Shown: positions 10,978-32,501 of the stretch, in pieces | How the letters are laid out: each line of letters opens with the position of its first letter | Numbering within the stretch: the stretch's first letter is position 1 | Notes under the pieces: generated by a model | Seen by the model: the letters and a program-made list of their open reading frames with translations, nothing else | The model's database searches: none | What the model was told of the DNA's origin: nothing | Position numbers and translations under genes: made by a program | Source of the DNA: Mizugakiibacter sediminis | GTDB taxonomy: Bacteria > Pseudomonadota > Gammaproteobacteria > Xanthomonadales > Rhodanobacteraceae | DNA: 64,000 bases | Direction of reading: 5' to 3' | NCBI RefSeq assembly: GCF_000953855.2 | Contig: NZ_DF970238.1 | Span: forward strand, 17,657 to 81,656

Positions 10978-11802
10978 TCACTGTAACTGCTTCGCGTAGG
11001 CGGCGGGCGTCAGCCCGCCTAATGCCTTCTTCGGACGCTCCTCGTTGTATTCCCGCCGCCAGCGCTCGATCTCGGCGCGTGCGTGCAGGAGGCTGGGGAA
11101 CCAGTGCTCGTTGAGGCACTCGTCGCGCAGGCGGCCGTTGAACGATTCGATGTACGCGTTCTGGTTCGGCTTGCCCGGCTCGATCAATCGCAGCTGCACG
11201 CCACGCTCATGTGCCCAGGTGACCATCGCCTTGCCACAGAACTCCTTGCCGTTGTCACTGCGAATCACCTTGGGTAGGCCACGGCTGAGCGCGAGGCGAT
11301 CCATCACCCGCGTCACGCCGATGCCGGAGATCGCCCGCTCAACCTCGATGACGACCGCCTCGTGGGTGGCGTCATCGACGACCGTCAGGCACTTCAGGAC
11401 GCGGCCTTCGGCTGTGCGATCGAACACGAAGTCCATCGACCAGACCTCGTTCGCTGCCGTCGGGCGAGCCAGCGGCTGGCGTTCGGCCAGAGGCACCTTT
11501 TTGCGCTTGCGACGGCGCACCTGCAGCCGGGCTTCCTGATACAGCCGCTCCACGCGCTTGTAGTTCACCGGCAGCCCGGCCTGTTTCAGCTTCAGATGGA
11601 TCATCCCGACGCCGTAGCGCTTGTGCCGCTGCGCCAGGGCCACGATCCGTTGTCGGAGCTCCACGTTGCGATCCGGGCACGGCGCATAGCGATATGCACT
11701 CGCACTCATGCAAGCAACGGCCAGCGAGCGCCGCTCGCTCAGTCCCTGGTCGATCATCTGCCGCACCAGCTCGCGTCGAGCCGGTGCGCTCACCACTTTT
11801 TT
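10978..11802 (-). CDS. IS3-family transposase OrfB (DDE integrase core)
   Basis: Read from the frameshift site, about 274 residues carry the rve/DDE core: D in [10 protein letters not shown] in [10 protein letters not shown] and E in [15 protein letters not shown], with the HTH_21 segment ([20 protein letters not shown]) before it. The 5' part of the longer open frame up to 11976 overlaps OrfA out of frame and is not part of OrfB. The product is made as OrfAB and catalyses excision and circularisation of the element and its insertion. Confidence 0.88.
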
Positions 11803-12059
11803 CGCAGCGCGTCCTTGATCACCTCGTTCTCGAGGACCTGCTCGGCCAGCAGCTTCTTCAGCCGGGCGTTCTCCGTCTCCAGCTCCTTCAAGCGACGCGC
11901 CTCCGACACGCTCATGCCGCCGAACTTGCTGCGCCACAGGTAGTAGGAGGCCTCGCTGAAGCCGTGCTTGCGGCAAAGGTCCTTCACCGCCAGGCCGGCT
12001 TCCGCCTCACGCAGGAAGCCGATGATCTGCTCTTCGGAAAAGCGCTTCTTCACGTCCAA
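11790..12059 (-). CDS. IS3-family transposase OrfA
   Basis: An 89-residue protein with an HTH of the IS3 OrfA type ([20 protein letters not shown], then [20 protein letters not shown]) and a C-terminal leucine zipper-like helix ([20 protein letters not shown]). It binds the IS ends. Its last codons read through AAAAAAG, a classic -1 slippery heptamer, into the OrfB frame, which would give the full OrfAB transposase. Confidence 0.9.
11796..11802 (-). promoter_or_regulatory. Programmed -1 frameshift heptamer AAAAAAG (OrfA to OrfAB)
   Basis: OrfA reads CGA AAA AAG TGG TGA. Slipping back one base gives GCG AAA AAA GTG GTG AGC, which enters the OrfB frame at [12 protein letters not shown]. This is the standard way IS3 elements make OrfAB. 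Confidence 0.8.
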
Positions 12060-12517: not shown

Positions 12518-13447
12518 GTGGATGAGGAACCTTCAGTGACTCAACCCCAGCGCGTCGAGAGCTTGAGCCACGCCCAGCGCGAGCGGCTGGCCTACATCGA
12601 CTTCCGGCTCTACTTCTTCGGTGAGATCGGTCGCCCAGATCTGATTGAGCGCTTCGGCGTGGCGCCGGCAGGGGCGACGCGCGACTTGGCGCTGTACCGG
12701 GAAATCGCGCCGCAGAACATCACCTTTGACGGTAGCCACAAGATCTACCGGATCGGGCAGGCGTTCTCCCCGCTGTTCAACCACGCCCCGCAGCGCGTGC
12801 TGTCGGCGCTGGCGCTGGGCTTCGGCGATGGTGTGAACGGCCCGAATCAGTCCTTGCAGCCGCTGCTGCCGTGCGAGTCGCCCACCGCCCTGAGCAACCC
12901 CAGGATGGATGTGCTGGCTCCGGTCTGCCGGGCGATCCACGCCAAGCGCCCCGTCGCCATTCGCTACCACTCGATGAGCAGCGGTGAATCCGAGCGCGTC
13001 ATCGTTCCGTTCGCACTGGTTGATACCGGCCTGCGCTGGCATGTCCGGGCCTTTGATCGCAAGAGCGGAGAGTTTCGGGACTTCGTCGTCACCCGTATCG
13101 AAGCGCCGACGCTGCTCGACGAGGAGCCACAGGCCTTTGAGCGACCGGAAAACGACATCCAGTGGACGCGCATCGTCGAGCTGGAGTTGGTGCCGCACCC
13201 GCGCCTTGAACACCCCGAGATCATCAGGATGGACTACGGGATGACCGACGGCTCGATCCGGATGCGCGTTCGCGCCGCCGTCGCGGGCTACATGCTGCTG
13301 CGCTGGAGCGTGGACTGCTCGCCCGACCACCGCCTCAAGGAAGAACAGTACCGCCTATGGCTCAGCGATCCGCTGGCGCTGTACGGCGTTGAGAACGCAA
13401 AGCTCGCGCCGGGGTATCAAGCTCCGAGCAGCCCCAAGAAACGATAG
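12518..13447 (+). CDS. WYL-domain transcriptional regulator (BrxR/CapW-like)
   Basis: A 309-residue protein with an N-terminal winged helix (about residues 17-75: RLAYIDFRLYFFGEIGRPDL then IERFGVAPAGATRDL), a central WYL-like SH3-barrel fold (about 135-215: PVAIRYHSMSSGESERVIVP, WHVRAFDRKSGEFRDFV) and a C-terminal WCX-like extension. The start is probably the GTG at 12518; another GTG six codons later is possible. Related regulators sit at the head of BREX, CBASS and restriction islands and bind a palindrome near their own promoter; one is visible at 12444-12458. It precedes the DUF262 gene by 15 bp and should control the operon downstream. Confidence 0.85.
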   Translation: MDEEPSVTQPQRVESLSHAQRERLAYIDFRLYFFGEIGRPDLIERFGVAPAGATRDLALYREIAPQNITFDGSHKIYRIGQAFSPLFNHAPQRVLSALALGFGDGVNGPNQSLQPLLPCESPTALSNPRMDVLAPVCRAIHAKRPVAIRYHSMSSGESERVIVPFALVDTGLRWHVRAFDRKSGEFRDFVVTRIEAPTLLDEEPQAFERPENDIQWTRIVELELVPHPRLEHPEIIRMDYGMTDGSIRMRVRAAVAGYMLLRWSVDCSPDHRLKEEQYRLWLSDPLALYGVENAKLAPGYQAPSSPKKR

Positions 13448-13462
13448 GAAAGAACAAGCGCA

Positions 13463-15196
13463 ATGGCCAAGACACTTGAAGCCCACGACAAGCTGATCCG
13501 GGAGATCTTCGAAGGCAGCTACCAGTTCGAGATTCCGGACTACCAGCGCCCCTACGCCTGGACAACCGAGCAAGCGGGAGAGTTGTTTGATGATCTGGTC
13601 TCCGCTATGCAGGATGCCCGAGCCAACGGGGCCACAAGCCAATACTTCTTGGGCAGCATCGTTCTTATCAAGAACGACCGCGACCCCAAGGCGATGGTCG
13701 TTGACGGCCAGCAGCGACTGACCACGCTCACGATCCTGTTTGCGGCCCTGCGCGCAGCGTGGGAGGCGGCCAACTACCCACCAGGCGTCAAAAGCGTGAC
13801 CCCTTTCCTCTACGAAGAGGGGGACGAGATGCTGGGCAAGGCCACCGGCTACCGATTCACCGCCCGCGAGGAAGATGCGACGTTCTTCCGTCAGTATATC
13901 CAGGAGCCGGGTGGCATCGCACAGTTGGTCGCCAGTACGGACAAGCTGAAAGACAGCCGTCTGCGTTACCGCGAAAACGCCACGCTGCTGCTCGAAAAGG
14001 CCAAGGCCCTGTCGCCTGACGACTTGAATGCCCTGTGGAAATTCCTCGCGAACGACTGCTCCCTGGTCGTCATTTCCACACCCGACCTCGAAGCGGCCTA
14101 CCGCATCTTCTCGGTACTGAACAATCGTGGGCTCGATCTGGCACCCATCGACATCATTAAGGCGGAAGTGCTCGGTTCGATCCGTCGCATCGGCGGGGAG
14201 GACAAGGCGCGCGCCTATTCGAAGAAGTGGAGCGAGATCGAAAGCCAGCTTGGCCGCGACGCTTTCGGCGACCTGTTCGGCCATATCCGCACCATCTACG
14301 CCAAGCAGAAGCAGCGGGCCACGCTGGTCAAGGAGTTCCAGGAGCACGTCACCGAGTACAAGGCCCCCATCGACCTCGTCGACAAGGTCATCAAACCCTA
14401 TGCCGAAGTGTGGGACTTCGTGCGCGATGCCGACTTTGAAGCCACCGAGCACGCCGAGACCATCAATGACTACCTGTCCTGGCTCAACCGCGTGGACTTC
14501 AAGGACTGGGTGCCCCCGGCACTGGTCTATTTCAAGCGCTTCCGGCAGCAGCCCAAATTGCTCGCCGAGTTTTTCAAGTCACTGGAACGCCTGACCTATT
14601 TCCTGCTGGTCACCAAGGTGGGTATCAACGAGCGCATCGAAACCTACGCTGCGCTGACCAAGGAAATCGAGCCGGAGACCTTCAAGGGGGATCTGGCCGC
14701 GCTCACCACGCTGACACTGACTGACGCGCAAAAGCGCAAGTTCGTCGCGGCACTCGATGGCGACGTTTACGACGATCTGCCCAAGGCACGGATGGCGCTG
14801 GTCTTGCGCCTTGAATCCTTGGTGCGCGCCCCCGGCGTGCAGCTCCAAGATGCCGTGTCTCTGGAGCACGTTCTGCCGCAAACCCCGCCCGACGGTTCGG
14901 ACTGGATCAAGTGGTTCCCGGATGAAGACGAGCGCAATGGCTGGACGCACCGTTTGGCCAATCTGGTTCCGCTGGATAGGAAGAAGAACTCGTCTGCCAG
15001 CAACTACGACTTTGCCAAGAAGAAAGACGCCTACTTCAGAGGTAAGGGCACTGCATCACCATTCGTGCTGACGCAGGAAGTCAGATCGGAAAAAGAATGG
15101 ACGCCCACGCTCCTGGCCGAGCGCCAGAAACGCCTTGTAGGCGTCCTCAAAGACCATTGGAATCTCGCCGTCTCCACAGGCACGGCGGCGAGCTGA
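13463..15196 (+). CDS. DUF262/DUF1524 nuclease (GmrSD/BrxU/SspE-like)
   Basis: A 577-residue protein. The N-terminal DUF262 domain shows IPDYQRPYAW at residues 24-33 and DGQQRLT at 81-87, the ParB-like nucleotide-binding motif of GmrS. The C-terminal DUF1524 domain has LEHVLPQ around H469 and NLVPLDRKKNSSASN downstream, the His-Me finger (HNH-like) nuclease site. Proteins with both domains restrict modified or modification-sensed phage DNA (GmrSD, BrxU, SspE). Its place between the regulator and hsdM suggests either a companion type IV activity or an accessory part of this type I system. It ends 11 bp before hsdM. Confidence 0.85.
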   Translation: MAKTLEAHDKLIREIFEGSYQFEIPDYQRPYAWTTEQAGELFDDLVSAMQDARANGATSQYFLGSIVLIKNDRDPKAMVVDGQQRLTTLTILFAALRAAWEAANYPPGVKSVTPFLYEEGDEMLGKATGYRFTAREEDATFFRQYIQEPGGIAQLVASTDKLKDSRLRYRENATLLLEKAKALSPDDLNALWKFLANDCSLVVISTPDLEAAYRIFSVLNNRGLDLAPIDIIKAEVLGSIRRIGGEDKARAYSKKWSEIESQLGRDAFGDLFGHIRTIYAKQKQRATLVKEFQEHVTEYKAPIDLVDKVIKPYAEVWDFVRDADFEATEHAETINDYLSWLNRVDFKDWVPPALVYFKRFRQQPKLLAEFFKSLERLTYFLLVTKVGINERIETYAALTKEIEPETFKGDLAALTTLTLTDAQKRKFVAALDGDVYDDLPKARMALVLRLESLVRAPGVQLQDAVSLEHVLPQTPPDGSDWIKWFPDEDERNGWTHRLANLVPLDRKKNSSASNYDFAKKKDAYFRGKGTASPFVLTQEVRSEKEWTPTLLAERQKRLVGVLKDHWNLAVSTGTAAS

Positions 15197-15207
15197 GGAA
15201 CGTATCG

Positions 15208-17586
15208 ATGCAGAAGAAGCAACAACAAGACCAAAGCCAGATCAAGTGGATCTCCGACTTCATCTGGAACATCGCGGACAACCGACTGCGCGATGTTTAT
15301 GTGCGCGGCAAGTATCGCGACGTCATCCTGCCCTTTACCGTGCTTCGGCGTCTTGACGCCGTGCTGGAGGAGACCAAGCAGAAGGTGCTGGAGCGCAAGC
15401 GCTTCCTCGACAAGAACAACGTCGCCGAGCAGGACGGAGCCCTGCGGATGGCTGCAGGGCAGGCGTTCTACAACGTCTCCGAGTTCACGCTCGCCACGCT
15501 CAAGGCCAGCAGCCAGGGCCAGCGCCTGCGGGAGGACTTCATTGCCTACCTCGATGGCTTCTCACCGAACGTCCAGGAGATCCTCACCAAGTTCAAGTTC
15601 CGCGACCAGATTCAGACGCTGGTGGATGCGCATGTTCTGGGCTACTTGATCGAAGACTTTCTCGACCCCGAGATCAACCTGTCGCCGCTACCGGTCAAGG
15701 ACGCCGACGGCCGCATCAAGCTGCCCGCGCTGGACAACCACGGCATGGGCACCGTGTTCGAAGAGCTGATCCGCCGCTTCAACGAGGAAAACAACGAAGA
15801 GGCCGGTGAGCACTTCACGCCGCGCGATGTCGTCAAACTGATGGCCAAGCTGATGTTCTTGCCGGTGGCCGATCAGATCCAGTCCGGCACCTACCTGCTC
15901 TACGACGGCGCCTGCGGCACGGGGGGCATGTTGACCGTTGCCGAGGAGACCTTGCGGGAGCTGGCCGAGGAACACGGCAAGGAGGTCTCCATCCACCTGT
16001 TCGGCCAGGAGATCAACCCCGAGACCTACGCCATCTGCAAGGCCGACCTGCTGCTCAAGGGCGAAGGCGACGAGGCGGAGCACATCGTCGGCGGTGCCGA
16101 CAAATCGACCCTATCGGCCGATCAGTTCCGTTCCCGCGAGTTCGACTTCATGATCTCCAACCCGCCCTACGGCAAGAGCTGGAAGACCGATTTCGAGCGC
16201 ATGGGCGGCAAGCAGGGTTTCAACGACCCGCGCTTCATCGTCAGCCACGGCGGTGATCCGGAGTTCAAGCTCATCACCCGCACGAGCGACGGGCAGCTCA
16301 TGTTCCTGGTGAACAAGCTGCAAAAGATGAAGCGGCACTCGCCGCTGGGCAGCCGCATCGCCATCGTTCACAACGGCTCGGCCCTGTTCACGGGCGATGC
16401 CGGCCAGGGTGAGAGCAACATCCGGCGCTGGATACTGGAAAACGACTGGCTGGAAGCCATCATCGCGCTGCCGCTCAACATCTTCTACAACACCGGCATC
16501 GCCACCTACGTCTGGGTGCTCGCCAACCGCAAGCCCGAGCACCGCAAGGGCAAGGTGCAATTGATCGACGCCAGCCAGTGGTTTCAGCCGCTGCGCCGTA
16601 ACCTTGGCAAGAAAAACTGCGAATTGTCCGAGGCCGACATCCAGCGCATCGTCGATCTCTACCTCGGGCCACCGCAGGACACGCCGCAGTGCAAATGGTT
16701 CGACACCACCGACTTTGGCTACTGGAAGATCACCGTCGAACGCCCGCTGCGGCTCAAAAGCCAGCTCAAGCGCAGCGCCATTGAGAGCCTGCGCTTCGCC
16801 AGCGGCGATGAGGCCCTGCGCGCCGAGATCTGGGCCAAGTACGGCGACAGGCTCTACGCCGAGTTCCCCAAGCTCAAGCCCGAGATCGAGGCGTGGCTGA
16901 AGGGCGATACCGGGGAAGAGAACGACGATGCGGAAGGCGATGAGGACGAGGGTACGCCCGCGAAGAAGGCGGTGCCCGAGAAGCGCCGCAAGAAACTGCT
17001 CGATTTCGCCACCTGGCAACGCGACAAGACCCTGATCGAGCTGGCGCTGCTCGCGCAGCAAGAGCTCGGCGACGGCGTGTTCGACGACCACAACGAGTTC
17101 CGCGCCCGCTTCGAGGCGGTCATGGCCAAGCACGGCAAGAAGCTCGCCGCCGCCGAAAAGAAGGCCATCTTCAAGGCCGTGAGCTGGCGTGACGAAACGG
17201 CGCCACCGGTGATTGCCAAGCGCACCAAGCTGAAAAAGGACGAGCCCTTCGAGCCGGGGCTCGACGGCGTGTACCTCGAGGTGGCGGGCAAAGACCGCTT
17301 CCTGGTCGAGTACGAGCCAGACACCGACTTGCGCGATACCGAGCAGGTGCCGCTGAAAGAGCCCGGCGGCATCGATGCCTTCTTCCGGCGTGAGGTGCTG
17401 CCCCACGCGCCGGACGCCTGGGTTGCGCGCGAGGCCACCAAGATCGGCTACGAGATCTCCTTTGCCCGCTACTTCTACAAGCCCGCGCCGCTGCGCTCGC
17501 TGGAGGAGATTCGCGCAGACATCCTCAAACTGGAACAGCAGACCGAAGGACTGTTGCAAAAGATCATTGGAGGGGTGCCGGCATGA
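15208..17586 (+). CDS. hsdM: Type I restriction-modification methyltransferase subunit HsdM
   Basis: A 792-residue protein; the ATG at 15208 is chosen because TGAGGA lies about 10 nt upstream, whereas the open frame extends further 5' into the DUF1524 gene. Residues 1-150 form the HsdM N-terminal helical domain (SQIKWISDFIWNIADNRLRD). The methyltransferase core has motif I DGACGTGGM at 233-241 and motif IV NPPY at 318-321, the signature of N6-adenine methylation. The C-terminal 220 residues are an unusually long charged extension (EENDDAEGDEDEG then KKAVPEKRRKK), making it larger than the usual 480-550 residue HsdM. Its stop overlaps the next start as ATGA. Confidence 0.95.
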   Translation: MQKKQQQDQSQIKWISDFIWNIADNRLRDVYVRGKYRDVILPFTVLRRLDAVLEETKQKVLERKRFLDKNNVAEQDGALRMAAGQAFYNVSEFTLATLKASSQGQRLREDFIAYLDGFSPNVQEILTKFKFRDQIQTLVDAHVLGYLIEDFLDPEINLSPLPVKDADGRIKLPALDNHGMGTVFEELIRRFNEENNEEAGEHFTPRDVVKLMAKLMFLPVADQIQSGTYLLYDGACGTGGMLTVAEETLRELAEEHGKEVSIHLFGQEINPETYAICKADLLLKGEGDEAEHIVGGADKSTLSADQFRSREFDFMISNPPYGKSWKTDFERMGGKQGFNDPRFIVSHGGDPEFKLITRTSDGQLMFLVNKLQKMKRHSPLGSRIAIVHNGSALFTGDAGQGESNIRRWILENDWLEAIIALPLNIFYNTGIATYVWVLANRKPEHRKGKVQLIDASQWFQPLRRNLGKKNCELSEADIQRIVDLYLGPPQDTPQCKWFDTTDFGYWKITVERPLRLKSQLKRSAIESLRFASGDEALRAEIWAKYGDRLYAEFPKLKPEIEAWLKGDTGEENDDAEGDEDEGTPAKKAVPEKRRKKLLDFATWQRDKTLIELALLAQQELGDGVFDDHNEFRARFEAVMAKHGKKLAAAEKKAIFKAVSWRDETAPPVIAKRTKLKKDEPFEPGLDGVYLEVAGKDRFLVEYEPDTDLRDTEQVPLKEPGGIDAFFRREVLPHAPDAWVAREATKIGYEISFARYFYKPAPLRSLEEIRADILKLEQQTEGLLQKIIGGVPA

Positions 17587-18617
17587 GTGAGCGCCAAACC
17601 CTGCTGACGGCCATCGCGCAGACGATTCAGGACTACCGCGACGGATCACTACCAAAGCCGATCACCGACCATGTCGACCGCTGGGTGCAGCAGTTCGATG
17701 TCGGCGTGCAGCTTCCGATCCTGCGCGAGGTGGATCATGTCCTGAAGAACACCTATTTCTCGAAAGAGAAGGTGTCGGAGTTCCTCCGTGGGGCAATCCT
17801 CACGGCCAAGCTCACGGGCCCAAACCCCAAGGAGTTCTGGCGGTCCGCAAACTTCCTGGACATCCAGGGCGGCGGTGCCAGTCAGACCGACATGCTCGCC
17901 TTGTTCTCGGAGGTGCTCCGAGAGGAATTCGGCATCGGCATCGAAGATTGCGGCCAGGGCAACGATGTCTTTATCTACCTTGATGACGGCATCTTCACCG
18001 GCAATCGGGTGAGGCGCGATCTGGAAGGTTGGGTGCGCGACCTGGCTCCTGCGCAGGCAACGGTGCATGTGATCTGCATCGCGCTGCACAGCGGCGGGCA
18101 GTACTACGCGAACGGCAGGATTCAGACAGCCGTGAAAGCGGCTGGCAAGAAGGTCGACATCACCTGGTGGCGTGCCATCGAGCTGGAGGATCGCCGGGCC
18201 TACAGCGCGTCTGCAGACGTGCTGCGCCCCACGGCGATCCCGGACGACCAAGCAGTGCGGGATTACGTGGCGGGTATGAAGTACCAGCCGACGCTGCGCG
18301 CACCCGGCAGCCCTGGCAATGCCGGCTTGTTCTCCAGCGACGCGGCCAAGATTCTGCTGGAGCAGGAGTTCCTGAAAGCCGGCGTCCGCATTCGGCAGAT
18401 GTGCCCGAACCTCGGCGACACGCAGCGCCCGCTAGGGCACATGACGCTGGAAACGCTGGGCTTCGGCTCGCTCATCGTGACCTACCGCAACTGTCCCAAC
18501 AATGCGCCGCTGGCGTTCTGGGTGGACGCGCCGTGGTACCCGCTGTTCCCCCGAACCACGAACACGCAGACGGCTGTGCGAAGGATGTTCGCGGACTTGA
18601 CTGGGGGCGGGCTTTGA
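17583..18617 (+). CDS. Phosphoribosyltransferase-like protein (PRTase-CE type)
   Basis: A 344-residue protein. After about 120 helical residues, FIYLDDGIFTGNRV (about 130-143) matches the PRPP-binding loop of phosphoribosyltransferases (hydrophobic strand, two acids, then the small-residue T-G turn). The following VHVICIALHSGG strand fits the next beta strand of the fold. PRTase-like domains of this kind have been predicted by Aravind and colleagues to act in conflict systems. It sits between hsdM and hsdS, overlapping hsdM by ATGA and the NADAR-HsdS gene by TGATG. Substrate and reaction are unknown; the tight coupling with a NADAR domain suggests they act on the same nucleotide or nucleic acid chemistry. 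Confidence 0.6.
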   Translation: MSERQTLLTAIAQTIQDYRDGSLPKPITDHVDRWVQQFDVGVQLPILREVDHVLKNTYFSKEKVSEFLRGAILTAKLTGPNPKEFWRSANFLDIQGGGASQTDMLALFSEVLREEFGIGIEDCGQGNDVFIYLDDGIFTGNRVRRDLEGWVRDLAPAQATVHVICIALHSGGQYYANGRIQTAVKAAGKKVDITWWRAIELEDRRAYSASADVLRPTAIPDDQAVRDYVAGMKYQPTLRAPGSPGNAGLFSSDAAKILLEQEFLKAGVRIRQMCPNLGDTQRPLGHMTLETLGFGSLIVTYRNCPNNAPLAFWVDAPWYPLFPRTTNTQTAVRRMFADLTGGGL

Positions 18618-20821
18618 TGAGCAGCCGAGATCAAGTCCGCACCTACAGCCGCGCCGAAAGCGTCGTCTTCCTGAAGACCGACGAGCCGTTTGGCGGCCTC
18701 TCGAACATGGCCGGGGGCTACCCCATTCGTGTGAATGGCATTCGCATCCTTACGTCCGAGGCGCTGTACCAAGCTTGCCGGTTTCCGCACCTGCCCGACG
18801 TGCAGCGCATGATCATCAGCGAGAACAGCCCGATGACGGCCAAGATGCGGAGCAAGCCTTACCGCAAGGACTCGCGTCGGGATTGGGATCACGTCCGCGT
18901 CCGCATCATGCGCTGGTGTCTGCGGATGAAGCTTGCCAACAACTGGAGTGCGTTCAGCGAGCTACTGCTCCGGACCGGTGACCGACCGATTGTGGAGGAG
19001 TCTCGAAAGGACGACTTCTGGGGCGCCAAGGCCGTTGGCGATGGCAGCACGCTGGTGGGCATGAACGTGCTCGGTCGGCTGCTGATGGAACTGCGCGAGC
19101 AGGTGAAAGAACACGGCCGTGATGCCTTCCTGCGTGTTGAGTTGCCTGATGTTCCAGACTTTCAGTTGCTCGGCCGCCCGATTGAGGTCTGGACCTTGAA
19201 AGAGGCCGTCGCCCTGGCAACGCCGCAGCCTGGGCTATTTGGTGATGACCTGCCGAGCGTTCAAACGGCGGCCGTCCCTGCATCAGCAACCTTGACCCCG
19301 CAAATGAGTGGGCAGCTATCGAAACCCGATGCGTTGAAAGTAGAGGGGGAAGCCGACTGCGCCACGCCGGTTCGCCCTGCTGAGGCGGGTGACCAGGCGA
19401 GCGCTTATCCGAGCTACCGAGACTCAGGCCTTCCCTGGGCTCCAAAGATACCTGAAGGCTGGCAAGTGCTGCGCAATGGCCGGCTCTTTAGCCACCGCGT
19501 GGAGACTGGCTTCCCCGACTTACCTATCCTGGAGGTATCGCTGCGCACCGGCGTTCGGGTCAGGGACATGGAGAACCTGAAACGCAAGCAGGTCATGAGC
19601 CAGAAGGAAAAGTACAAGCGCGCAGCCAAGGGCGACATCGCCTACAACATGATGCGCATGTGGCAAGGCGCGGTTGGCGTGGCCCCGGTGGATGGGCTGG
19701 TCAGCCCGGCCTACGTGGTGGTCAAGCCGTACCCGGAAGCCAACTCGGCGTACTTCAGCTACCTGTTCCGGACCAGCGCCTACATGCGCGAGGTCAACAA
19801 ATTCTCGCGTGGCATCGTGGCGGACCGCAATCGGCTCTATTGGGAGTCGTTCAAGCAAATGCCGTCCCTGGTGCCCCCGCGCGCCGAGCAAGACCAGATC
19901 GTCGCCTACCTGCGCGCGCAGGACGCGCACATCGCCCGCTTCATCAAGGCCAAGCGCGAGCTCATCAAACTGCTGACCGAACAGAAGCTGCGCATCATCG
20001 ACCACGCCGTCACGCGCGGGCTTGACCCCAACGTCCGCCTCAAACCCACCGGCATCGAATGGCTGGGCGAGGTGCCGGAGCATTGGGAGGTCGCTCTCAT
20101 TAAGCACATCGCGGACGTGCGCTTCAGCGGCGTCGATAAGCACTCGCACAACGATGAAATGCCCGTGCGCCTGTGCAACTACACCGATGTCTACAAGAAC
20201 GACCGCATCACCGAAGATATGGACCTGATGCGCGCCACAGCGACGGCTGCGGAAATCGCCCGCCTGACGCTGAAAGCGGGTGATGTCATTTTGACCAAGG
20301 ATTCGGAAACCCCGGACGACATTGGCGTACCCGCATGGGTGCCGGAGGATTTACCCGGTGTGGTTTGCGCCTATCACCTTGGCCTGCTGCGCCCCATACC
20401 GGAACGTGTGTTGGGCGAGTTCCTGTTTCGTGCTATTGGATCAGCGCGTACTGCGCAACAGTTTCACGTTTTAGCCACCGGCGTCACGCGCTTTGCACTC
20501 AGCAAGCACGATGTGAAGAACGCAGTCATCGCGTTGCCACCCATCGAAGAACAGCAAACCATCTGCCGCTGGATCACCGACGAGTGCCAGCCGCTGGACG
20601 GTGCCATCGCCCGCGCCGAAGAGGAAATCAAGCTGATCCGCGAGTACCGCGACCGCCTGATTGCCGATGTGGTGACCGGCCAGATCGACGTGCGCGGCTG
20701 GCGGCCAGGGCCGGATGACGTGGCGAGCGATGTGGAACTGGCCGCACTGGGGGGTGAGGAGGAAAATACCGGAGAAGAAGATTTGCACGAGGAGACTGCG
20801 TCATGGCCGACATGCACTTGA
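18617..20821 (+). CDS. hsdS: NADAR-HsdS fusion: type I specificity subunit with N-terminal NADAR domain
   Basis: The ATG at 18617 overlaps the upstream stop (TGATG) and gives 734 residues; the open frame upstream is a shadow. Residues of about 15-165 form a NADAR (YbiA-like) domain: [27 protein letters not shown] with E48, [32 protein letters not shown] with DDFWG, and [14 protein letters not shown] Pro/Ala-rich linker (about 205-262) leads to a standard Hsd[21 protein letters not shown] starts target-recognition domain 1, and a second half starts at the FKPTG(I)[12 protein letters not shown]-type segment. HsdS normally has 400-450 residues and starts directly with the first half. NADAR enzymes cleave N-glycosidic bonds, including ADP-ribose from guanine, so this subunit may couple sequence recognition with a deglycosylation step. 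Confidence 0.88.
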
Positions 20822-21252
20822 CCCAGGCCGAGGCGGACGCCTTGCTTGCGATGGCCAAACACCGCAGCGACGAGGAGCGCTACGACTTTCCGATGGGCGG
20901 GCAAAGCCTTTCCATTCCTCTGCGCTCTCATGACCATCGCGAGCACTTTCTGCTGGACCTGCACCGTGCACGTATCAATCTGGCCAAGGTGAAGTTTCAG
21001 AGCCGCGCCCGTCAGGTCGTGGTGCTGGCGCGTCTGGACCTGGGCGGCGCGCCGCATCGAAACCCGGATGACACGGAAGTTCCGGCGCCGCATTTGCATC
21101 TTTACCGTGAAGGCTACGGCCACCGATGGGCCTACCCGGTGCCAGCCGAGCGGTTCCGTGATGTGGCCGATCTGTGGCGGACGCTGGAGGACTTCATGGC
21201 TTACTGCAACATCGTCGAGCCGCCCATCATCGAGCGAGGGTTGTTCACATGA
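20803..21252 (+). CDS. Small conserved protein paired with a DUF1829 protein (DUF6978-like)
   Basis: A 149-residue soluble protein overlapping the 3' end of hsdS by 19 bp and the next gene by ATGA. It begins with an acidic helix ([20 protein letters not shown]), has a central strand-rich part ([19 protein letters not shown]) and a conserved-looking [20 protein letters not shown] block, typical of the small partner that accompanies DUF1828/DUF1829 proteins. The family name is from memory and should be treated as tentative. The pair looks like a two-gene cassette embedded in the restriction operon, possibly a toxin-antitoxin-like or antiphage unit. Confidence 0.6.
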
Positions 21253-22013
21253 TCGCTGACATTCAAGGCCTGGTGGACGCCTATCACGCTTGGCTGAAGG
21301 ACAAGACCGTCCTCAAGCAGATCAACGATTGGGTGGAGATCACCACGCCGTATCTCGACCGCCACAACGACTACATCCAGATCTATGCGCGCCGGGATGA
21401 CGGCGGCGTGCTGCTGACCGACGACGGCTACACGCTGGAAGACCTGCGCGACAGCGGCTGCAAGCTGGATTCTCCCAAGCGGCAGGCGCTGCTGCGGCAA
21501 ACGCTCAACGGCTTTGGTGTGCAGTTGTCCGGAGATCGGATTGAAGTGCACGCGACGCCGGAGAACTTTGCCTTGCGCAAGCACAATCTGGTGCAGGCCA
21601 TGCTGGCGGTGGGGGATATGTTCTATCTCGCCGTGCCACTCGTGGCGAGCTTGTTCTACGAGGATGTGGTGGCCTGGCTGGACCTGCACGATGTGCGCTA
21701 TACGACGAATGTCAAGTTTTCGGGCAAGTCGGGCTTTGATCACCGCTTCGACTTCGTGATCCCGAAATCCCGCCGCCAGCCGGAAAGGGTGTTGCAGGCC
21801 ATCAACCGCCCCCGGCGCGATGCTGCTCAGGCGATCGCTTTCTCGTGGATCGACACGAAAGAAACGCGGCCCGCGGAGTCACGCGCGATTGCGTTGCTCA
21901 ATGATTCGGAGCAGAGCGTTTCCGGAGACATTCTGGATGCTTTGCGCAATTACGACGTGCGCCCAGTGCTTTGGAGCCAGCGAGAAACCGTGGTCGAGGA
22001 GTTGGCCGCATGA
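21249..22013 (+). CDS. DUF1828/DUF1829 domain protein
   Basis: A 254-residue protein from the ATG at 21249, whose A overlaps the preceding TGA. The N-terminal DUF1828 part shows [20 protein letters not shown] followed by [20 protein letters not shown], and the C-terminal DUF1829 part shows [20 protein letters not shown] and [14 protein letters not shown]. The second half has the spacing of a restriction-endonuclease-like fold (D-x-FDF strand), but no classical ExK is obvious. Function unknown. It is followed by a HigA-like gene with an ATGA overlap. Confidence 0.75.
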
Positions 22014-22306
22014 GTGGCATCGAGACCGGGGCACCGTTTGCGCCCGATTGGGTGTCTCCGCCAGGCGACACCATTGCCGATGTGCTGGTGGAGCGCGGCT
22101 GGTCGTGCGCTGAGCTGGCCCGCCGCATGGGCTGTGCTGAAACGCATATCAGCCAGATCATCAACGGCGAAGCCCGTATCACCGAAGAGACGGCCTCCGG
22201 TTTGGCGCGGGTCATTGGCAGCACCGCAAGCTTTTGGTTGCGAAAAGAAGCTGCATACCGCGCACGACTGTCCGTGCGCACTGACGACACAGGAGCTGGG
22301 CAATGA
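22010..22306 (+). CDS. HigA-like XRE-family HTH protein
   Basis: A 98-residue protein with the HigA/VapI antitoxin layout: [20 protein letters not shown] followed by [21 protein letters not shown] (the helix-turn-helix) and [18 protein letters not shown]. The start overlaps the DUF1829 stop by ATGA and its own stop overlaps the hsdR start by ATGA. No HigB-type toxin is beside it; the DUF1828/1829 pair directly upstream is the only candidate partner. It could also regulate the operon from within. Confidence 0.85.
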
Positions 22307-25300
22307 TTGCCACGGACACCAGCGAAAAAGGCCTCGAAGCCCTGATCGTGCGGCATCTCGCTGGCATCAGCGAGCATCCTCCAGTTTCTTCCGGTTCCGC
22401 ACAAGAACCGACCGGCATTTATGCCCCCGGCGGCTATGTGTTGGGGCGGGCGTCGGACTACAACCGCGACCTGGCGCTGGACGTGGTCCAGTTGCTCGCC
22501 TTTCTGCGGGCGACTCAGCCGAAGGTGGTCGAGACGCTGAACCTGGACGCCGAAGGCATTCAGCGCACCCAGTTCCTGCACAGGTTGCAGGGCGAAATTT
22601 CCAAGCGCGGCGTGGTGGACGTGCTGCGCAAAGGGGTCAGCCACGGGCCGGTCCACGTGGACCTCTACAAGCTGTTGCCCACCCCAGGCAACGCCGCCGC
22701 GGCCGAGTCCTTCGGCAAGAACATTTTCAGCGTCACCCGGCAGGTGCGCTACAGCAACGACGAGTCCCAGCGCGCGCTGGACATGGTGATCTTCATCAAC
22801 GGCTTGCCGGTGCTCACCTTCGAGCTGAAGAACTCGCTGACCAAACAGACTGTTGCGGACGCTGTGGTGCAGTACCAGACCGACCGCAACCCGGGTGAGC
22901 TGCTGTTTCAGCTCGGCCGCTGCATTGCCCACATGGCAGTGGACGATGCCGAGGTGCGCTTCTGCACGCACCTGACTGGCAAGACCTCCTGGTTCCTGCC
23001 GTTCAACCAGGGTTGGAACAGCGGCGCCGGCAATCCACCGAACCCTCATGGCCTGAAGACCGACTACCTCTGGAAGCAGGTGTTGGCAAAGGAGTCGCTG
23101 GCCAACATCATCGAGAACTTCGCTCAGGTGGTGGAGGAGGAAGAGCAAGACGCCAGCGGCCGCAAGCGCAAGACGCGCAAGCAGATCTTCCCCCGATACC
23201 ACCAACTGCGCACGGTGCGCGCCTTGCTGCGCCGCAGCCGTGTGGATGGTGTCGGCAAGCGCTACCTGATTCAGCACTCAGCCGGCAGCGGCAAGAGCAA
23301 CACGATTGCCTGGCTGGCGCACCAGTTGGTCGAGCTGAAAACGGATGCGGGGCGGGCGCAGTTCGACTCCGTCATCGTCATCACCGATCGGCGAGCGCTG
23401 GACACGCAGATTGCCCGCACGATCAAGTCCTACGACCACGTGGCTTCGATCTACGGCCATTCGGAAAGCGCCGAGGAGCTGCGCACCTTCCTGCGCCGCG
23501 GCAAGAAAATCATCGTCACCACGGTGCAGAAGTTTCCGTTCATCCTGGACGAGCTGGAGGACCTCGGCGACAAGAAGTTCGCGCTGCTGATCGACGAGGC
23601 CCACTCCAGCCAGGGCGGCAAGACGACGGCCAAGATGCATCTGGCGCTGTCCGGACACAATGCTGAGGGCGGCGAGGAGGAAGAGGAGGAATCGGTCGAG
23701 GACAAGGTCAACGCCTTGATCGAGTCTCGCAAGATGCTGGCCAATGCCAGCTACTACGCCTTCACGGCCACGCCCAAGACCAAGACCCTGGAGCTGTTCG
23801 GCGAGCGCCAAGTGGTTGGCGACACGGTGCAGTTCCGTTCGCCCGAAGAGCTGACGTACACCACCAAGCAGGCGATTCAGGAGGGTTTCATCCTCGACGT
23901 GATCGCCAACTACACCCCGGTGGCGAGCTTTTATCACGTCGCCAAGATCGTCGAGCACGACCCGGAGGTGGACAAGGCCAAGGCGCTCAAGAAGATCCGG
24001 CGCTACGTGGAGTCCCACGACAAGGCGATCCGTCGCAAGGCGGAGATCATGGTCGATCATTTTGTCGAGCAGGTGATCGGCGCCAAGAAGATCGGCGGCA
24101 AAGCGCGGGCGATGATCGTCTGCAACGGCATCGCCCGGGCCATCGACTACTTCCGCGAGGTTTCGGACTACCTCACCGAGATCAAGAGCCCGTACAAGGC
24201 CATCGTGGCGTACTCCGGCGAGTTTGAGATCGGCGGGTCAAAGAAGACCGAGGCCGATCTCAACGGATTCCCGAGCAAGGACATTCCGGCCAAGCTCAGG
24301 CAAGACCCGTATCGATTCCTGATCGTCGCGAACAAGTTCGTCACGGGCTTCGACGAGCCGCTGTTGCACACGATGTACGTGGACAAGCCGCTGGCGGGCG
24401 TCCTGGCCGTGCAGACACTCTCGCGACTGAACCGCGCGCATCCGCAGAAGGCGGACACGTTCGTGCTCGACTTCGCCGACAACGCGGAGGCCGTCAAGGC
24501 GGCGTTCCAAGAGTACTACCGTGCCACGATCCAGGAAGGTGAGACCGATCCGAACAAGCTCCACGACCTGAAGAGCGATCTGGACGCACAGCAGGTCTAC
24601 AGCTGGCAGCAGGTCGAAGACCTCGTCGCGCAGTACCTTGGCGGAGCTGAGCGGGATCAGCTCGACCCAATCCTCGATGCCTGCGTCGCGGAATACGTCG
24701 AAAAGCTCGCTGAGGACGACCAGGTGAAATTCAAGGGCAAGGCGAAAGCCTTCGTCCGCAGCTACGGCTTTCTCGCGGCCATCCTGCCCTATGGGCATCC
24801 GGCATGGGAGAAGCTGTCGATCTTCCTCAACTTCCTGATTCCGAAGCTGCCTGCGCCCAAGGAGGAGGATCTGTCCAAGGGCGTGCTGGAAGCCATCGAC
24901 ATGGACAGCTACCGCGCTCAGGCCCAGGCTTCGATGCGGATGGCAATGGACGATGCGGACGCATTCGTCGAACCCCCACCGCCGGGAGGTGGTGGAGGTG
25001 GCGGCGAGCCAGAGCTGGACAGGCTGTCGAACATCATCAAGCAGTTCAATGACCTGTTCGGCAACATCGAGTGGCATGACGCCGACAAGATTCGCAAGGT
25101 CGTCACCGAAGAGATTCCGGCGCGCGTGGCGCAGGACAAGGCTTACCAGAACGCGCAGGCCAATTCGGGCAAGCAGAACGCGAGGCTGGAGCACGACAAG
25201 GCGCTCAACCGCGTGGTGCTGGAGCTGCTCGACGACCATACAGAGCTCTTCAAGCAGTTCAGCGACAACCCGAATTTCAAGCGCTGGCTGGCGGACATGG

Positions 25301-25368
25301 TGTTCGATTCGACCTACCGCCCAGGACAGAAGCCGTCGGTTCCGCCTCAATCGGGCGCTCAGGCCTGA
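22303..25368 (+). CDS. hsdR: Type I restriction endonuclease subunit HsdR
   Basis: A 1021-residue protein. The N-terminal nuclease site is D160 with E174-L-K176 in VLTFELKN, the PD-(D/E)XK residues of HsdR. The translocase follows with Walker A SAGSGKSNT at 326-334, DEAH at 431-434 (LLIDEAHSSQGG), motif III around FTATPKTKT, and the RecA-like second domain ending with VQTLSRLNRAHPQK. The C-terminal region is helical with a Pro/Gly-rich loop (EPPPPGGGGGGGEPEL) and binds the HsdM/HsdS complex in this family. It cleaves unmodified DNA after ATP-driven translocation. It is in one operon with hsdM and hsdS, and all motifs look intact. Confidence 0.95.
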   Translation: MIATDTSEKGLEALIVRHLAGISEHPPVSSGSAQEPTGIYAPGGYVLGRASDYNRDLALDVVQLLAFLRATQPKVVETLNLDAEGIQRTQFLHRLQGEISKRGVVDVLRKGVSHGPVHVDLYKLLPTPGNAAAAESFGKNIFSVTRQVRYSNDESQRALDMVIFINGLPVLTFELKNSLTKQTVADAVVQYQTDRNPGELLFQLGRCIAHMAVDDAEVRFCTHLTGKTSWFLPFNQGWNSGAGNPPNPHGLKTDYLWKQVLAKESLANIIENFAQVVEEEEQDASGRKRKTRKQIFPRYHQLRTVRALLRRSRVDGVGKRYLIQHSAGSGKSNTIAWLAHQLVELKTDAGRAQFDSVIVITDRRALDTQIARTIKSYDHVASIYGHSESAEELRTFLRRGKKIIVTTVQKFPFILDELEDLGDKKFALLIDEAHSSQGGKTTAKMHLALSGHNAEGGEEEEEESVEDKVNALIESRKMLANASYYAFTATPKTKTLELFGERQVVGDTVQFRSPEELTYTTKQAIQEGFILDVIANYTPVASFYHVAKIVEHDPEVDKAKALKKIRRYVESHDKAIRRKAEIMVDHFVEQVIGAKKIGGKARAMIVCNGIARAIDYFREVSDYLTEIKSPYKAIVAYSGEFEIGGSKKTEADLNGFPSKDIPAKLRQDPYRFLIVANKFVTGFDEPLLHTMYVDKPLAGVLAVQTLSRLNRAHPQKADTFVLDFADNAEAVKAAFQEYYRATIQEGETDPNKLHDLKSDLDAQQVYSWQQVEDLVAQYLGGAERDQLDPILDACVAEYVEKLAEDDQVKFKGKAKAFVRSYGFLAAILPYGHPAWEKLSIFLNFLIPKLPAPKEEDLSKGVLEAIDMDSYRAQAQASMRMAMDDADAFVEPPPPGGGGGGGEPELDRLSNIIKQFNDLFGNIEWHDADKIRKVVTEEIPARVAQDKAYQNAQANSGKQNARLEHDKALNRVVLELLDDHTELFKQFSDNPNFKRWLADMVFDSTYRPGQKPSVPPQSGAQA

Positions 25369-25386: not shown

Positions 25387-26337
25387 ATGCAGGAAAAGCT
25401 CAACCTCAGCAAGGCGCTGCTCAGTTTCCTGAAGGAACGTGCGGGCGAGAAATTCACCGCACGGCAGATCGCCGAGTGGGTGTTCGCGACCTACCCGGAC
25501 GAGTGCCAAGCCAAGAAGGCCAGCAGCAAATTCATTACCGACGACGCCGGCCTGGTGCAACAACTGGTGGCAGAGATCAGTTCGCAACGGCCTGCACTAC
25601 AGAGGCGTTACCCCGAGTTGAAGACCACTGAGGGACGCCCGCGCAAGTACTACTACTCCGAGAAGTCCGACAGCGCCGAGGTGGCAGCGGCTGAGGCAGG
25701 ACAAGCTGAGGCGCCCGCTGCCGATGCGGCGGCAGGCAAGCTCGGCGAGCACGCGCTGTATCCAATGCTGTCGCAGTACCTGTGGGAGGAGTTCCGGGTC
25801 TTCTCCAAGCGCATCGACGAGAAGAAGTCGTCGAATAAGCGCGGCCCCAACGGCAACCGCTGGCTCTACCCCGATGTGGTGGGCATGGAGGACCTGGGCG
25901 CCGAGTGGCATCAGGAGGTGCGCGACTGCGTCAATCAGTACTCCGACAAGCGAACCCGACTGTGGTCCTTCGAAGCCAAGCTGCTGATCAACCGGTCAAA
26001 CGCGCGCGAGTGCTTTTTCCAGGCTGTTTCCAACTCATCATGGGCCAACTTCGGCTACCTGGTCGCGGCGGAGATCGAGGGCCAAGACACGCTCAAGGAG
26101 CTGCGCATGCTTTTCGCGGCGCACGGCATCGGTCTGATCAAGTTGGACACCGAGAACCCGGTCGACAGCCAGGTGTTGATTCCGGCGCGCGAGCGGGACG
26201 AGATCGATTGGGACATGGCCAATCGTCTGGCGACCGAGAACAAGGACTTCCTCGGCTTCGTAAAGCTCGTCAAGCAGTTCTACCAGACCGGCGAGGCGCG
26301 CGCGGCGGACTGGGATCTGCCCACGGCGGCTGTCTGA
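25387..26337 (+). CDS. COG2958-like protein with N-terminal wHTH and nuclease-like domain
   Basis: A 316-residue protein 18 bp after hsdR, with a GGAGG ribosome-binding site just before the ATG. Residues 1-95 form a winged-helix (HARE-HTH-like) domain (TARQIAEWVFATYPDE, then KYYYSEKSD); an Ala-rich linker covers about 97-118. The C-terminal part has WLYPDVVGME and LWSFEAKLLI, the D and ExK of a PD-(D/E)XK nuclease fold, so it may cut DNA. Related proteins are found next to restriction systems (HrgA-like). It is the last gene of the operon and the last of the island. Confidence 0.75.
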   Translation: MQEKLNLSKALLSFLKERAGEKFTARQIAEWVFATYPDECQAKKASSKFITDDAGLVQQLVAEISSQRPALQRRYPELKTTEGRPRKYYYSEKSDSAEVAAAEAGQAEAPAADAAAGKLGEHALYPMLSQYLWEEFRVFSKRIDEKKSSNKRGPNGNRWLYPDVVGMEDLGAEWHQEVRDCVNQYSDKRTRLWSFEAKLLINRSNARECFFQAVSNSSWANFGYLVAAEIEGQDTLKELRMLFAAHGIGLIKLDTENPVDSQVLIPARERDEIDWDMANRLATENKDFLGFVKLVKQFYQTGEARAADWDLPTAAV

Positions 26338-26692: not shown

Positions 26693-26711
26693 GCGTCTGA
26701 CCTGCCTTGCA

Positions 26712-27176
26712 TCAGGTGTTGCCGAGCAGCCAGGTGACTTCGGCAGCTCGGCGCGCTACCAAGCCCGGGAGTACCTTTCCGCCGCCGTAGATCCATCGGC
26801 GCAGTTCCGTTGCTGCTGCGATCCAATCCCGTTGATTGACCCGCCGCCGCAGCGTCGAGGTCTGCAGCCGCCCGGCGCCGAGGTTGAAGGTGAAGTCCAC
26901 GATGGCCGCGAGCCGCCCTTCCGGCTCGGTCGCCAGCACAGGGCAGTAGCGCAACGTCGCAGCCAGCGCGATCCTGAGGTCTTCTGCCAGGTAGCGCTCC
27001 GCCTCGACCTCCGTGATCGGCGGATGATCCGGATCGCAGAGGTGACCGTAGCCGACTGTCCAGTAGCCGGCTGGGCAGACGTAAGGATGCGCGCGGCCGG
27101 GATCGTTCTTCGGTACGCGGTGAAAGCCCTCGAAGCGTTTGGCCAGATCGATGGCCGCCTGCGGGACCGCGATCAC
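26712..27176 (-). CDS. Phage endolysin, GH24 lysozyme
   Basis: A 154-residue lysozyme of the T4/P22 type. The GTG at 27176 overlaps the stop of the gene upstream (GTGA), so it is preferred over the much longer open frame. The catalytic Glu is in KRFEGFHR, and the conserved TVGYGHLCD supplies the Thr of the E-D-T triad; FTFNLGAGRLQTSTLRRRVN is the second family signature. There is no signal or SAR anchor at the N terminus, so it should need a holin. It cleaves the glycan strands of peptidoglycan at the end of the lytic cycle. Confidence 0.9.
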   Translation of the reverse strand: MIAVPQAAIDLAKRFEGFHRVPKNDPGRAHPYVCPAGYWTVGYGHLCDPDHPPITEVEAERYLAEDLRIALAATLRYCPVLATEPEGRLAAIVDFTFNLGAGRLQTSTLRRRVNQRDWIAAATELRRWIYGGGKVLPGLVARRAAEVTWLLGNT

Positions 27177-27649
27177 GGCCGCACCCGGTCGAACACGCGC
27201 CCGAGGAACCAGAAGTTCAGCACCCCGGCCCACAGGGCCTGGTCGGCCTCGGTCCAGGCCGCCTGGATGGCGGGGATCCAGTCCGCCCCGGCCTCGATGG
27301 CACCCACGAAGGCGGCAGTCTTGGCCGCGCAGTACAGCGCCATGAACCAGTAGGTGATCACCGGACGGACGCTGCTGGACAGCGCATCGGCCCACTTCAC
27401 GCCCGAGGGCCGCCCCTGCGCCGCAACCGCCTCGCGCAAGGCCTCGATGGCTCCGGTGTTCCATGCTGCGTCGGCCCCGGCGCCGATCTCGGCCATGCGC
27501 TGGGCGCCGCGCAGCTTTTCGAACTCCAAGGCCTTGTCCTGCATGGCGAGTTCATGGCTGCGCTCGCCCTTGCGGTCGATCCACTTCAGCACTTCGGGCG
27601 CCAAGCGGAAGGCCCCGCCGAGGAGGCCGCCAAGCAGGGTCTCGATCAT
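27173..27649 (-). CDS. Holin-like membrane protein (3TM phage type)
   Basis: A 158-residue protein with an N-terminal hydrophobic LLGGLLGGAF segment, a charged helix (KALEFEKLRGAQRMAEIGAG) and C-terminal hydrophobic stretches including VRPVITYWFMALYCAAKTAA and LWAGVLNFWFLGRVF. The VRPxxTYWF block is typical of the GTA/phage 3TM holin group. It overlaps the lysozyme gene by GTGA and the upstream small membrane protein by ATGA, which fits a lysis cassette. The holin role is inferred from topology and position. Confidence 0.65.
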   Translation of the reverse strand: MIETLLGGLLGGAFRLAPEVLKWIDRKGERSHELAMQDKALEFEKLRGAQRMAEIGAGADAAWNTGAIEALREAVAAQGRPSGVKWADALSSSVRPVITYWFMALYCAAKTAAFVGAIEAGADWIPAIQAAWTEADQALWAGVLNFWFLGRVFDRVRP

Positions 27650-27948
27650 TGGCCACCTCCCATCAGCTTGAGCTTGATGGCGGCGCCGACCAACAGCAGC
27701 GCCAGGATGCCGGTGGTCGCCACCTTGATGGTGGTCTGCCAGGCGGTCTTGCGGGCATCGCGCCAGGCTTCGAGCAGATCGCGCAGTTCGCGGATGTCGC
27801 GCGCGGCGTGGCCGTTTTCCAGGCCGAGGTGGGCGAGCACGCGCTCGGCCCCGCGTTCGGCGGCACGGTCGAGCAGTTCGTCGAAGTCCTCGCGGCGCAG
27901 GAGTAGCGTGTTCTCGACGAAGGCGGGGGCTTGGGTCGGTTCAGTCAT
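27646..27948 (-). CDS. Small membrane protein of the lysis cassette (DUF6127-like)
   Basis: A 100-residue protein. The ATG at 27948 has GGAG six bases upstream and is preferred over an upstream TTG. It has an acidic helical N-terminal part (LLRREDFDELLDRAAERGAE, then IRELRDLLEAWRDARKTAW) and a single C-terminal transmembrane helix (VATTGILALLLVGAAIKLKL). The layout resembles holin accessory proteins next to endolysins. The family name is tentative. Confidence 0.6.
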   Translation of the reverse strand: MTEPTQAPAFVENTLLLRREDFDELLDRAAERGAERVLAHLGLENGHAARDIRELRDLLEAWRDARKTAWQTTIKVATTGILALLLVGAAIKLKLMGGGQ

Positions 27949-27967
27949 GGGCGTCTCCAAATACGAC

Positions 27968-27990
27968 GAACCCGCCTCGTGGGCGGGTTC
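27968..27990 (-). terminator. Hairpin between the DUF2793 gene and the lysis genes
   Basis: A GAACCCGCC / GGCGGGTTC stem with a 5-nt loop. The run after it on the minus strand (GTCGTATTTGG) is only weakly T-rich, so it may be a partial terminator or an RNA-processing site in the late transcript. Confidence 0.5.
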
Positions 27991-28014
27991 ATGTGGTTGC
28001 GAAGGGATGGAGAT

Positions 28015-28365
28015 TCAGATGGCGATGCCGGGACTCCAGCCGGTGGCTTTGTAGGCCGAGAGCACTGCCTCGTCCTCGATGTAGCAAAGCCAGCCGATGT
28101 TGGGCGTGTGGTACTCCCAGGCATCGGCAATTCGCACGGCGATCTGGTTGGTTTTGCCTGCCCAAACGCCCGTGGCGGCGGCAGGAATGAGGTAGCGGTC
28201 GCCGTTGGCGGGGCTGGCCGGTGGCGTGGTCAGGTCGCGGTCTTTCACGGACAGGCCAACCACTGCGCCGAGGCGCTTGAGATTGGCGTCCATGCCGGTG
28301 TCCCAGCCGCTCTCGCCGAGCGTCCAGCCGTAATTGAGTCCAAGGTTCGGATCGGTTGATGACAT
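28015..28365 (-). CDS. DUF2793 domain phage structural protein
   Basis: A 116-residue protein from an ATG with GGAGATA upstream. The sequence LGLNYGWTLGESGWDTGMDA followed by NLKRL, and later NGDRYLIPAAATGVWAGKTN with the closing YHTPNIGWLCYIEDE, is the DUF2793 signature seen in tail-tip or fibre-associated proteins. It sits after the tip gene and the glycosyltransferase-like gene, so it is probably a distal tail component. Confidence 0.8.
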   Translation of the reverse strand: MSSTDPNLGLNYGWTLGESGWDTGMDANLKRLGAVVGLSVKDRDLTTPPASPANGDRYLIPAAATGVWAGKTNQIAVRIADAWEYHTPNIGWLCYIEDEAVLSAYKATGWSPGIAI

Positions 28366-28368
28366 GGT

Positions 28369-31689: not shown

Positions 31690-31707
31690 GGCGATTTCTC
31701 CAGGGAT

Positions 31708-32496: not shown

Positions 32497-32501
32497 CGTG
32501 C

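Follow-up and report, generated by a model that had tools for sequence, protein, structure and literature searches.

The window described here is a 64,000-nucleotide stretch of Mizugakiibacter sediminis (contig NZ_DF970238.1, positions 17,657 to 81,656 of the forward strand). It contains a complete type I restriction-modification operon in which the HsdS specificity subunit is covalently joined to an N-terminal NADAR domain (18617..20821, plus strand), and the gene directly upstream (17583..18617, plus strand) encodes a 344-aa phosphoribosyltransferase-like protein, PRTase-CE. Both proteins score above the curated cut-offs for the two components of the anti-phage system DS-32, and the pair is therefore a DS-32 module. 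The fusion places this known pair in a different arrangement, with the NADAR component built into the subunit that recognises DNA.

Anatomy of the fusion and its partner

The fusion gene is translated without a stop over 734 codons. Its first 190 residues (18617..19186) comprise the NADAR domain and a C-terminal extension, delimited by Pfam, NCBIfam and alignment; Pfam PF08719 matches residues 18–163 (E=2.3e-24), and the protein passes the NCBIfam model NF053876 (DS32_2, 'NADAR family anti-phage protein') with 279 bits against a cut-off of 240 (E=9.9e-84). A variable linker (about residues 194–260; 19196..19396) leads to an HsdS subunit with two target-recognition domains (residues 261–698; 19397..20710), which is recognised by the PADLOC model Specificity_I (E=4.6e-111); Pfam Methylase_S covers the second target-recognition domain only (residues 551–652). 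In an AlphaFold2 model built from 33 homologues the NADAR domain is confident (predicted local distance difference test, pLDDT, mostly 84–94), the roughly 67-residue linker is disordered (pLDDT mostly 23–32), and the HsdS half has the normal two recognition domains and two long helices (residues 422–467 and 643–686). A sequence-only reading of this DNA had placed a single 734-codon frame at these coordinates, with NADAR in residues 15–165 and HsdS from about residue 264; the profile searches and the AlphaFold2 model bear out both frame and domain limits, and PF08719 confirms the NADAR assignment.

A frame error between the two domains, a possibility raised in the same reading, is ruled out. 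Relatives of the fusion were sought in one genome from each of 85,000 species, and of the 80 loci kept, 35 encode the full fusion (663–763 aa) while the other 45 have a plain hsdS. The 35 loci include three whose BLAST alignment ran past a stop codon, all of them truly fused. Since these loci, in independent assemblies, encode the same open fusion, a frame error is excluded; and because the same join recurs in dozens of bacteria, the fusion is a real design. An internal start from which a separate HsdS could be made is not conserved, a candidate being present in 3 of 36 loci. The source genome yielded no other NADAR. The sequence-only reading knew of no such fusion, and no description of one was found in the literature searched; a mention in subscription papers is possible.

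The partner of the NADAR domain was overlooked in that reading. Its gene ends within the start of the fusion gene (TGATG), matches Pfam PRTase-CE (E=3.4e-61) and passes the NCBIfam model NF053875 (DS32_1, 'phosphoribosyltransferase-like anti-phage protein') with 424.6 bits against 250 (E=2.4e-127). DS-32 has its origin among E. coli anti-phage systems that were validated by experiment; its label stems from NCBIfam. The DefensePredictor study, in which 42 E. coli anti-phage systems were validated, mentions NADAR domains and PRTase in its text and a figure legend, its main text being sparse on details (PMC13092281). The window and E. coli DS-32 have the same two proteins in the same order, whereas the E. 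coli NADAR stands alone, with 203 aa, and that of the window is fused to HsdS within a type I operon.

PRTase-CE contains a segment, YLDDGIFTGNR, resembling the loop that binds phosphoribosyl pyrophosphate (PRPP) in class I phosphoribosyltransferases, where a hydrophobic strand is followed by DD and then TG or SG, and its residues Y132, D134, D135, F138 and G140 are invariant across 38 sequences. The structure model is confident (pLDDT 88.6). Its top Foldseek matches are uracil phosphoribosyltransferases, at a weak level (best E=0.013, TM-score below 0.3 by query length), and a sequence search against the PDB returned no relative. The protein also weakly resembles the PADLOC PRTase_III-A models; in type III-A retrons, PRTase-like proteins typically serve as the effector (PMC12548924). 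No paper on PRTase-CE was found in the literature searched. The protein was not found in an annotated phage collection, prophage contigs do carry it, and a scan of viral contigs with a Vibrio PRTase as query found nothing.

Active site and linker motif

YbiA and the P. nicotianae NADAR (PDB 8bau) served as references in an alignment of the NADAR domain, which was read against the ADP-ribose contacts given in PMC11543638. Eight residues, E48, R55, K76, R87, W90, R94, E127 and W135, are invariant across 33 fused proteins. E48 and E127 correspond to the glutamates that contact the distal ribose (E43 and E125 in 8bau), and the phosphate-side residues K76, W90, R94 and W135 are all kept. The adenosine-side contacts are not: Tyr84 is replaced by a variable residue, Asp86 by the invariant R87, and Lys50 by the invariant R55, an arginine common to the fused and stand-alone members compared. 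E127 is the catalytic glutamate of the 'IVExS' motif, which is a feature of the YbiA subfamily. YbiA likewise lacks the adenosine contacts; in nature it acts on phosphoribosylamino intermediates of riboflavin synthesis. Retention of the phosphate and distal-ribose contacts, together with loss of the adenosine contacts, fits a phosphoribosyl rather than an ADP-ribosyl substrate. A phosphoribosyl adduct would be the chemically natural substrate for this NADAR, since its obligatory partner is a phosphoribosyltransferase.

DarTG1 and DarTG2 are toxin-antitoxin systems that pair a base-modifying enzyme, the writer, with a reversing enzyme, the eraser, which in DarTG1 is a NADAR; a similar division of labour is proposed below for the DS-32 pair. 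The window differs in having no ADP-ribosyltransferase, its partner being a PRTase, and in having a YbiA-type NADAR, with Glu127 in place of Asp and Arg55 in place of the lysine that is K95 in E. coli C7. Membership of DarTG1 was considered and rejected, since these diagnostic residues differ and no DarT is among the neighbours (HsdM, PRTase-CE and DUF6978). The substitution K95R in the E. coli C7 NADAR leaves activity in vitro intact and abolishes rescue from DarT1 (PMC11543638). The suggestion in the sequence-only reading that the domain acts on ADP-ribosyl-guanine is weakened, as the conserved lysine of such NADARs is Arg55 in all family members compared.

The linker is otherwise variable, with a conserved short motif, Q-x-[SAG]-L-F. 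In the window this is QPGLF (residues 204–208; 19226..19240, plus strand), a match to the sliding-clamp-binding consensus Q-x-x-L-F. The pattern Q..[LIM]F is present in 36 of the 42 linkers or tails compared, where shuffling predicts 0.4; related sequences are not independent in this comparison. One fusion (L039) has tandem clamp-like motifs, QSSLFD and QPPLFD, in a single linker (residues 214–225). In stand-alone NADARs the motif lies at or near the C-terminus: the proteins end in QSLSLF (E. coli), QPALF, QRDFF or QMELFSA, or carry QGSLF. Motifs resembling Q-L-x-L-F are used by transposases and repair enzymes to bind the beta sliding clamp, and are commonly C-terminal and unstructured (PMC4549789). 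The motif may dock the NADAR on the host sliding clamp, or it may bind the PRTase: it is absent from most NADARs that have no PRTase beside them. An exception is a DS-32-like Vibrio NADAR beside a Dam methylase (L085:6971-7600), which ends in QLGFF and lies on an 882-kb replicon on which no PRTase was detected.

Recurrence and operon context

Most of the fused loci come from Alpha-, Beta- and Gammaproteobacteria; Thermodesulfobacteriota, Myxococcota and Melainabacteria supply one each. Two come from metagenome-assembled genomes labelled Chloroflexota and Minisyncoccota, which are possibly mis-binned; the former shares 97% identity with the window. Further fused loci were found in other genomes (L087 and L088) and, in several cases, in viral-contig collections. 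PRTase-CE lies immediately upstream of the fusion, after hsdM, in all 34 fused loci that have upstream contig sequence, and the 45 loci with a plain hsdS yielded neither PRTase-CE nor a DS-32-type NADAR. Among the loci found, every NADAR that adjoins a type I hsdS is fused to it. Within the window's class, 4 of 369 genomes pass the NADAR profile cut-off (three fused, one stand-alone), and within its phylum 3 of 398 pass that of the PRTase.

Identity between loci is 66–83% in the NADAR half and falls to 27–50% in most for the HsdS half; target recognition therefore varies freely, and the NADAR is kept regardless of target. In the window's clade the NADAR is under strong purifying selection (non-synonymous divergence, dN, about 0.03–0.12 against synonymous divergence, dS, about 0.5–1.8), and the linker evolves far faster. 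Close relatives without the cassette start HsdS at its own codon just before a YPxYR segment that in the fusion follows the linker, and an E. coli plasmid has WYL-GmrSD-hsdM-hsdS-hsdR in the same order with no cassette. A tree of 75 HsdM proteins shows 14 changes between presence and absence of the cassette, of which well-supported branches force at least 11; the pair has therefore been gained or lost repeatedly at one junction. A single origin of the fusion was rejected on the PRTase tree, where fused loci as one clade give an approximately unbiased test value (p-AU) of 0.0007, a rough figure given the long branches. The NADAR tree is unresolved on this point. Within the limits that long branches set, the fusion probably arose more than once or was in some cases split.

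The PRTase–NADAR cassette also occurs away from type I operons. Stand-alone pairs are found on a Methylobacterium plasmid, in Vibrio algicola, in Klebsiella, in another member of the window's class (L121) and in E. coli. The E. coli locus examined (L129:6941-8574) belongs to a lambdoid prophage, in whose nin/replication region it lies between the replication gene P and ninE; its NADAR stretch is matched in 62 of 5,426 E. coli genomes. In two other loci (L122, 6671-18691, and L123) the pair is placed between hmaA and hmaB of the Hma system, in the order HmaA-PRTase-NADAR-HmaB-HmaC. A viral contig (L153:3965-8047) has the NADAR on the N-terminus of HmaB, a DUF1156 adenine methyltransferase, in a protein of 1360 aa, with PRTase-CE and HmaA upstream. 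These are cases of the same cassette beside, or fused to, a methyltransferase subunit; they differ from the window in the host defence system and in the fusion partner, which is HmaB and not HsdS. The same NADAR has therefore become attached to a component of the methylation machinery in two defence systems that are unrelated.

The operon of the window runs, on the plus strand, from a WYL regulator through GmrSD, hsdM, PRTase-CE, NADAR::hsdS, DUF6978, DUF1828/1829, a HigA-like gene and hsdR to the gene of a 316-aa protein. Profile searches identify the WYL-domain regulator at its head (12518..13447), a GmrSD/DUF262-type protein that belongs to the operon backbone and is present also in loci without the cassette (13463..15196), the N6-adenine methyltransferase HsdM (15208..17586), and HsdR, with HSDR_N nuclease and SWI2/SNF2 motor domains (22303..25368). 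HsdM, HsdS and HsdR thus form a complete type I set, each with its expected domains; what sets it apart from an ordinary type I system is the NADAR on HsdS and the PRTase gene between hsdM and hsdS, the stop of hsdM overlapping the PRTase start (ATGA). Two passengers lie between hsdS and hsdR, DUF6978 (PADLOC candidate PDC-M24A; 20803..21252) and DUF1828/DUF1829 (PADLOC candidate PDC-M24B; 21246..22013), followed by a HigA-like helix-turn-helix protein (21998..22306); this segment (20803-22306) contains the HigA-like antitoxin without a toxin gene. The 316-aa protein (25387..26337), for which Pfam, PADLOC and NCBIfam gave no match, is kept after hsdR in several related operons. An IS3-type two-frame transposase (10978-12059) lies immediately upstream of the operon, and prophage-like genes on the minus strand (lysozyme-like and tail-like; 26700-32500) lie immediately downstream.

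Other slots of the same type I operon family are occupied by YhcG nuclease, GmrSD, RhuM and AlbA/Schlafen proteins. DarTG in type I operons has been reported in general (PMC5179494). In this family, DarT and/or DarG genes are present at L049:11380-13117 and in seven other plain loci, and 8 of 40 plain loci have DarT with a DarG macrodomain protein in the interval from hsdS to hsdR, as against 0 of 32 loci with the cassette. These figures hint that DarTG and the cassette exclude each other (Fisher p=0.007, uncorrected), but the effect is not significant after phylogenetic pairing on the tree.

Possible roles of the joined pair

The interpretation that we tentatively favour is that the DS-32 pair was taken into the type I operon at the hsdM/hsdS junction as a second layer of defence, with PRTase-CE as effector and the NADAR, anchored to the modification complex, as its eraser or brake. 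Insertion would have given the order hsdM - PRTase-CE - NADAR::hsdS - hsdR, with the NADAR in frame with HsdS. The PRTase would transfer phosphoribose from PRPP to a nucleobase of DNA, RNA or a nucleotide, and the NADAR, as a member of an N-glycosidase family, would strip off the phosphoribosyl adduct or restrain the PRTase in some other way. Fusion to HsdS would hold this eraser or brake inside the HsdM/HsdS complex, while the linker motif might dock it on the host sliding clamp as well. The PRTase would then be restrained for as long as the methylation complex and host replication are intact, and released when a phage inhibits, degrades or circumvents the restriction enzyme, as it might by means of a DNA mimic; alternatively, it may act on phage DNA that lies beyond the reach of the tethered eraser. 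Precedents for this logic are the DarTG pairs within type I operons and PrrC, the anticodon nuclease embedded in the type IC system EcoprrI. PrrC is a second effector within a type I operon, and the restriction complex keeps it latent (PMC3874165). It cleaves tRNA and is a protein separate from HsdS, whereas the putative effector of the window is PRTase-like and the NADAR is fused; operon position and the fusion suggest a similar latency by analogy.

Some observations weigh against this interpretation. The fold matches of PRTase-CE to class I phosphoribosyltransferases are weak. It presumes that PRTase-CE or the NADAR is toxic and that the NADAR reverses the PRTase product. The argument from the active site is itself weak, because YbiA, which lacks the adenosine contacts, still hydrolyses guanine-ADP-ribose in vitro (PMC11125620). 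The linker motif could be a contact for the PRTase and not for the clamp, given its absence from most NADARs that lack a neighbouring PRTase. Since DS-32 works without HsdS, the fusion is not needed for basic function, and it may have arisen or split more than once. The complementary presence of DarTG and the cassette in this operon family lends no significant support once phylogeny is corrected for.

A more specific proposal is that the pair carries out reversible phosphoribosylation of nucleic acid: PRTase-CE would use PRPP to write a phosphoribosyl adduct on a base and the NADAR would erase it, the eraser being anchored to HsdS/HsdM or HmaB and to the clamp, such that adducts are removed from self DNA and left on phage DNA. 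We regard this as rather doubtful. Marginally better placed, and still doubtful, is the idea that the two proteins are co-effectors, the NADAR turning the PRTase product into a toxic or depleting compound; neither would be an antitoxin, and HsdS would only couple triggering to the restriction complex. Annotation of DS-32 as a two-component anti-phage system agrees with it, as do the PRTase-like effectors of type III-A retrons (PMC12548924) and the weak similarity of PRTase-CE to the PADLOC PRTase_III-A models. The best-characterised toxin-adjacent NADARs, however, are reversing antitoxins (PMC11543638, PMC11125620), and the toxic or depleting compound is hypothetical.

The sequence-only reading had proposed instead that HsdS brings the NADAR to its recognition sequence, where it would remove a protective or harmful base modification or sense modified phage DNA. 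The physical joining of NADAR and HsdS, the retained distal-ribose glutamates and the occurrence of DarTG, a DNA ADP-ribosylation pair, in type I operons are all compatible with chemistry at the target site. Such delivery is possible and is not favoured; we consider it unlikely, since the NADAR is 66–83% identical whatever the HsdS specificity (27–50%), the same NADAR works in stand-alone DS-32 without HsdS, and the fused NADAR is always accompanied by PRTase-CE. The disorder of the linker, moreover, implies no fixed placement of the NADAR on a DNA site. More improbable still is that DS-32 acts as an addiction module through which the type I operon is retained in the cell, the fusion coupling retention of the specificity gene to that of the antidote. 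Selfish stabilisation of this kind has been proposed for DarTG in type I operons (PMC5179494), and it would suit a cassette that is often gained and lost and whose genes overlap; it leaves the conserved linker motif unexplained, and DS-32 is classed as an anti-phage system by itself. That a stop codon between unrelated genes was simply lost, giving a fusion without consequence, is very hard to credit. A long, disordered, fast-evolving linker would suit such read-through, but every NADAR found beside a type I hsdS is fused, with intact frames and purifying selection at dozens of loci in several phyla; there is also no conserved internal start for HsdS, and a parallel NADAR–HmaB fusion exists.

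In the tethered arrangement that we favour, two anti-phage strategies, restriction-modification and a PRTase/NADAR pair, are joined in one protein complex, and this union recurs widely. To the effectors found embedded in type I operons, PrrC and DarTG among them, it adds one with a covalent link to the specificity subunit. Together, the fusion, the stand-alone form in E. coli prophages and the NADAR–HmaB protein make the function of DS-32 directly testable. If the phosphoribosylation proposal were true, the pair would represent an immunity based on DNA damage, in which self and non-self are set by where the repair enzyme is anchored.

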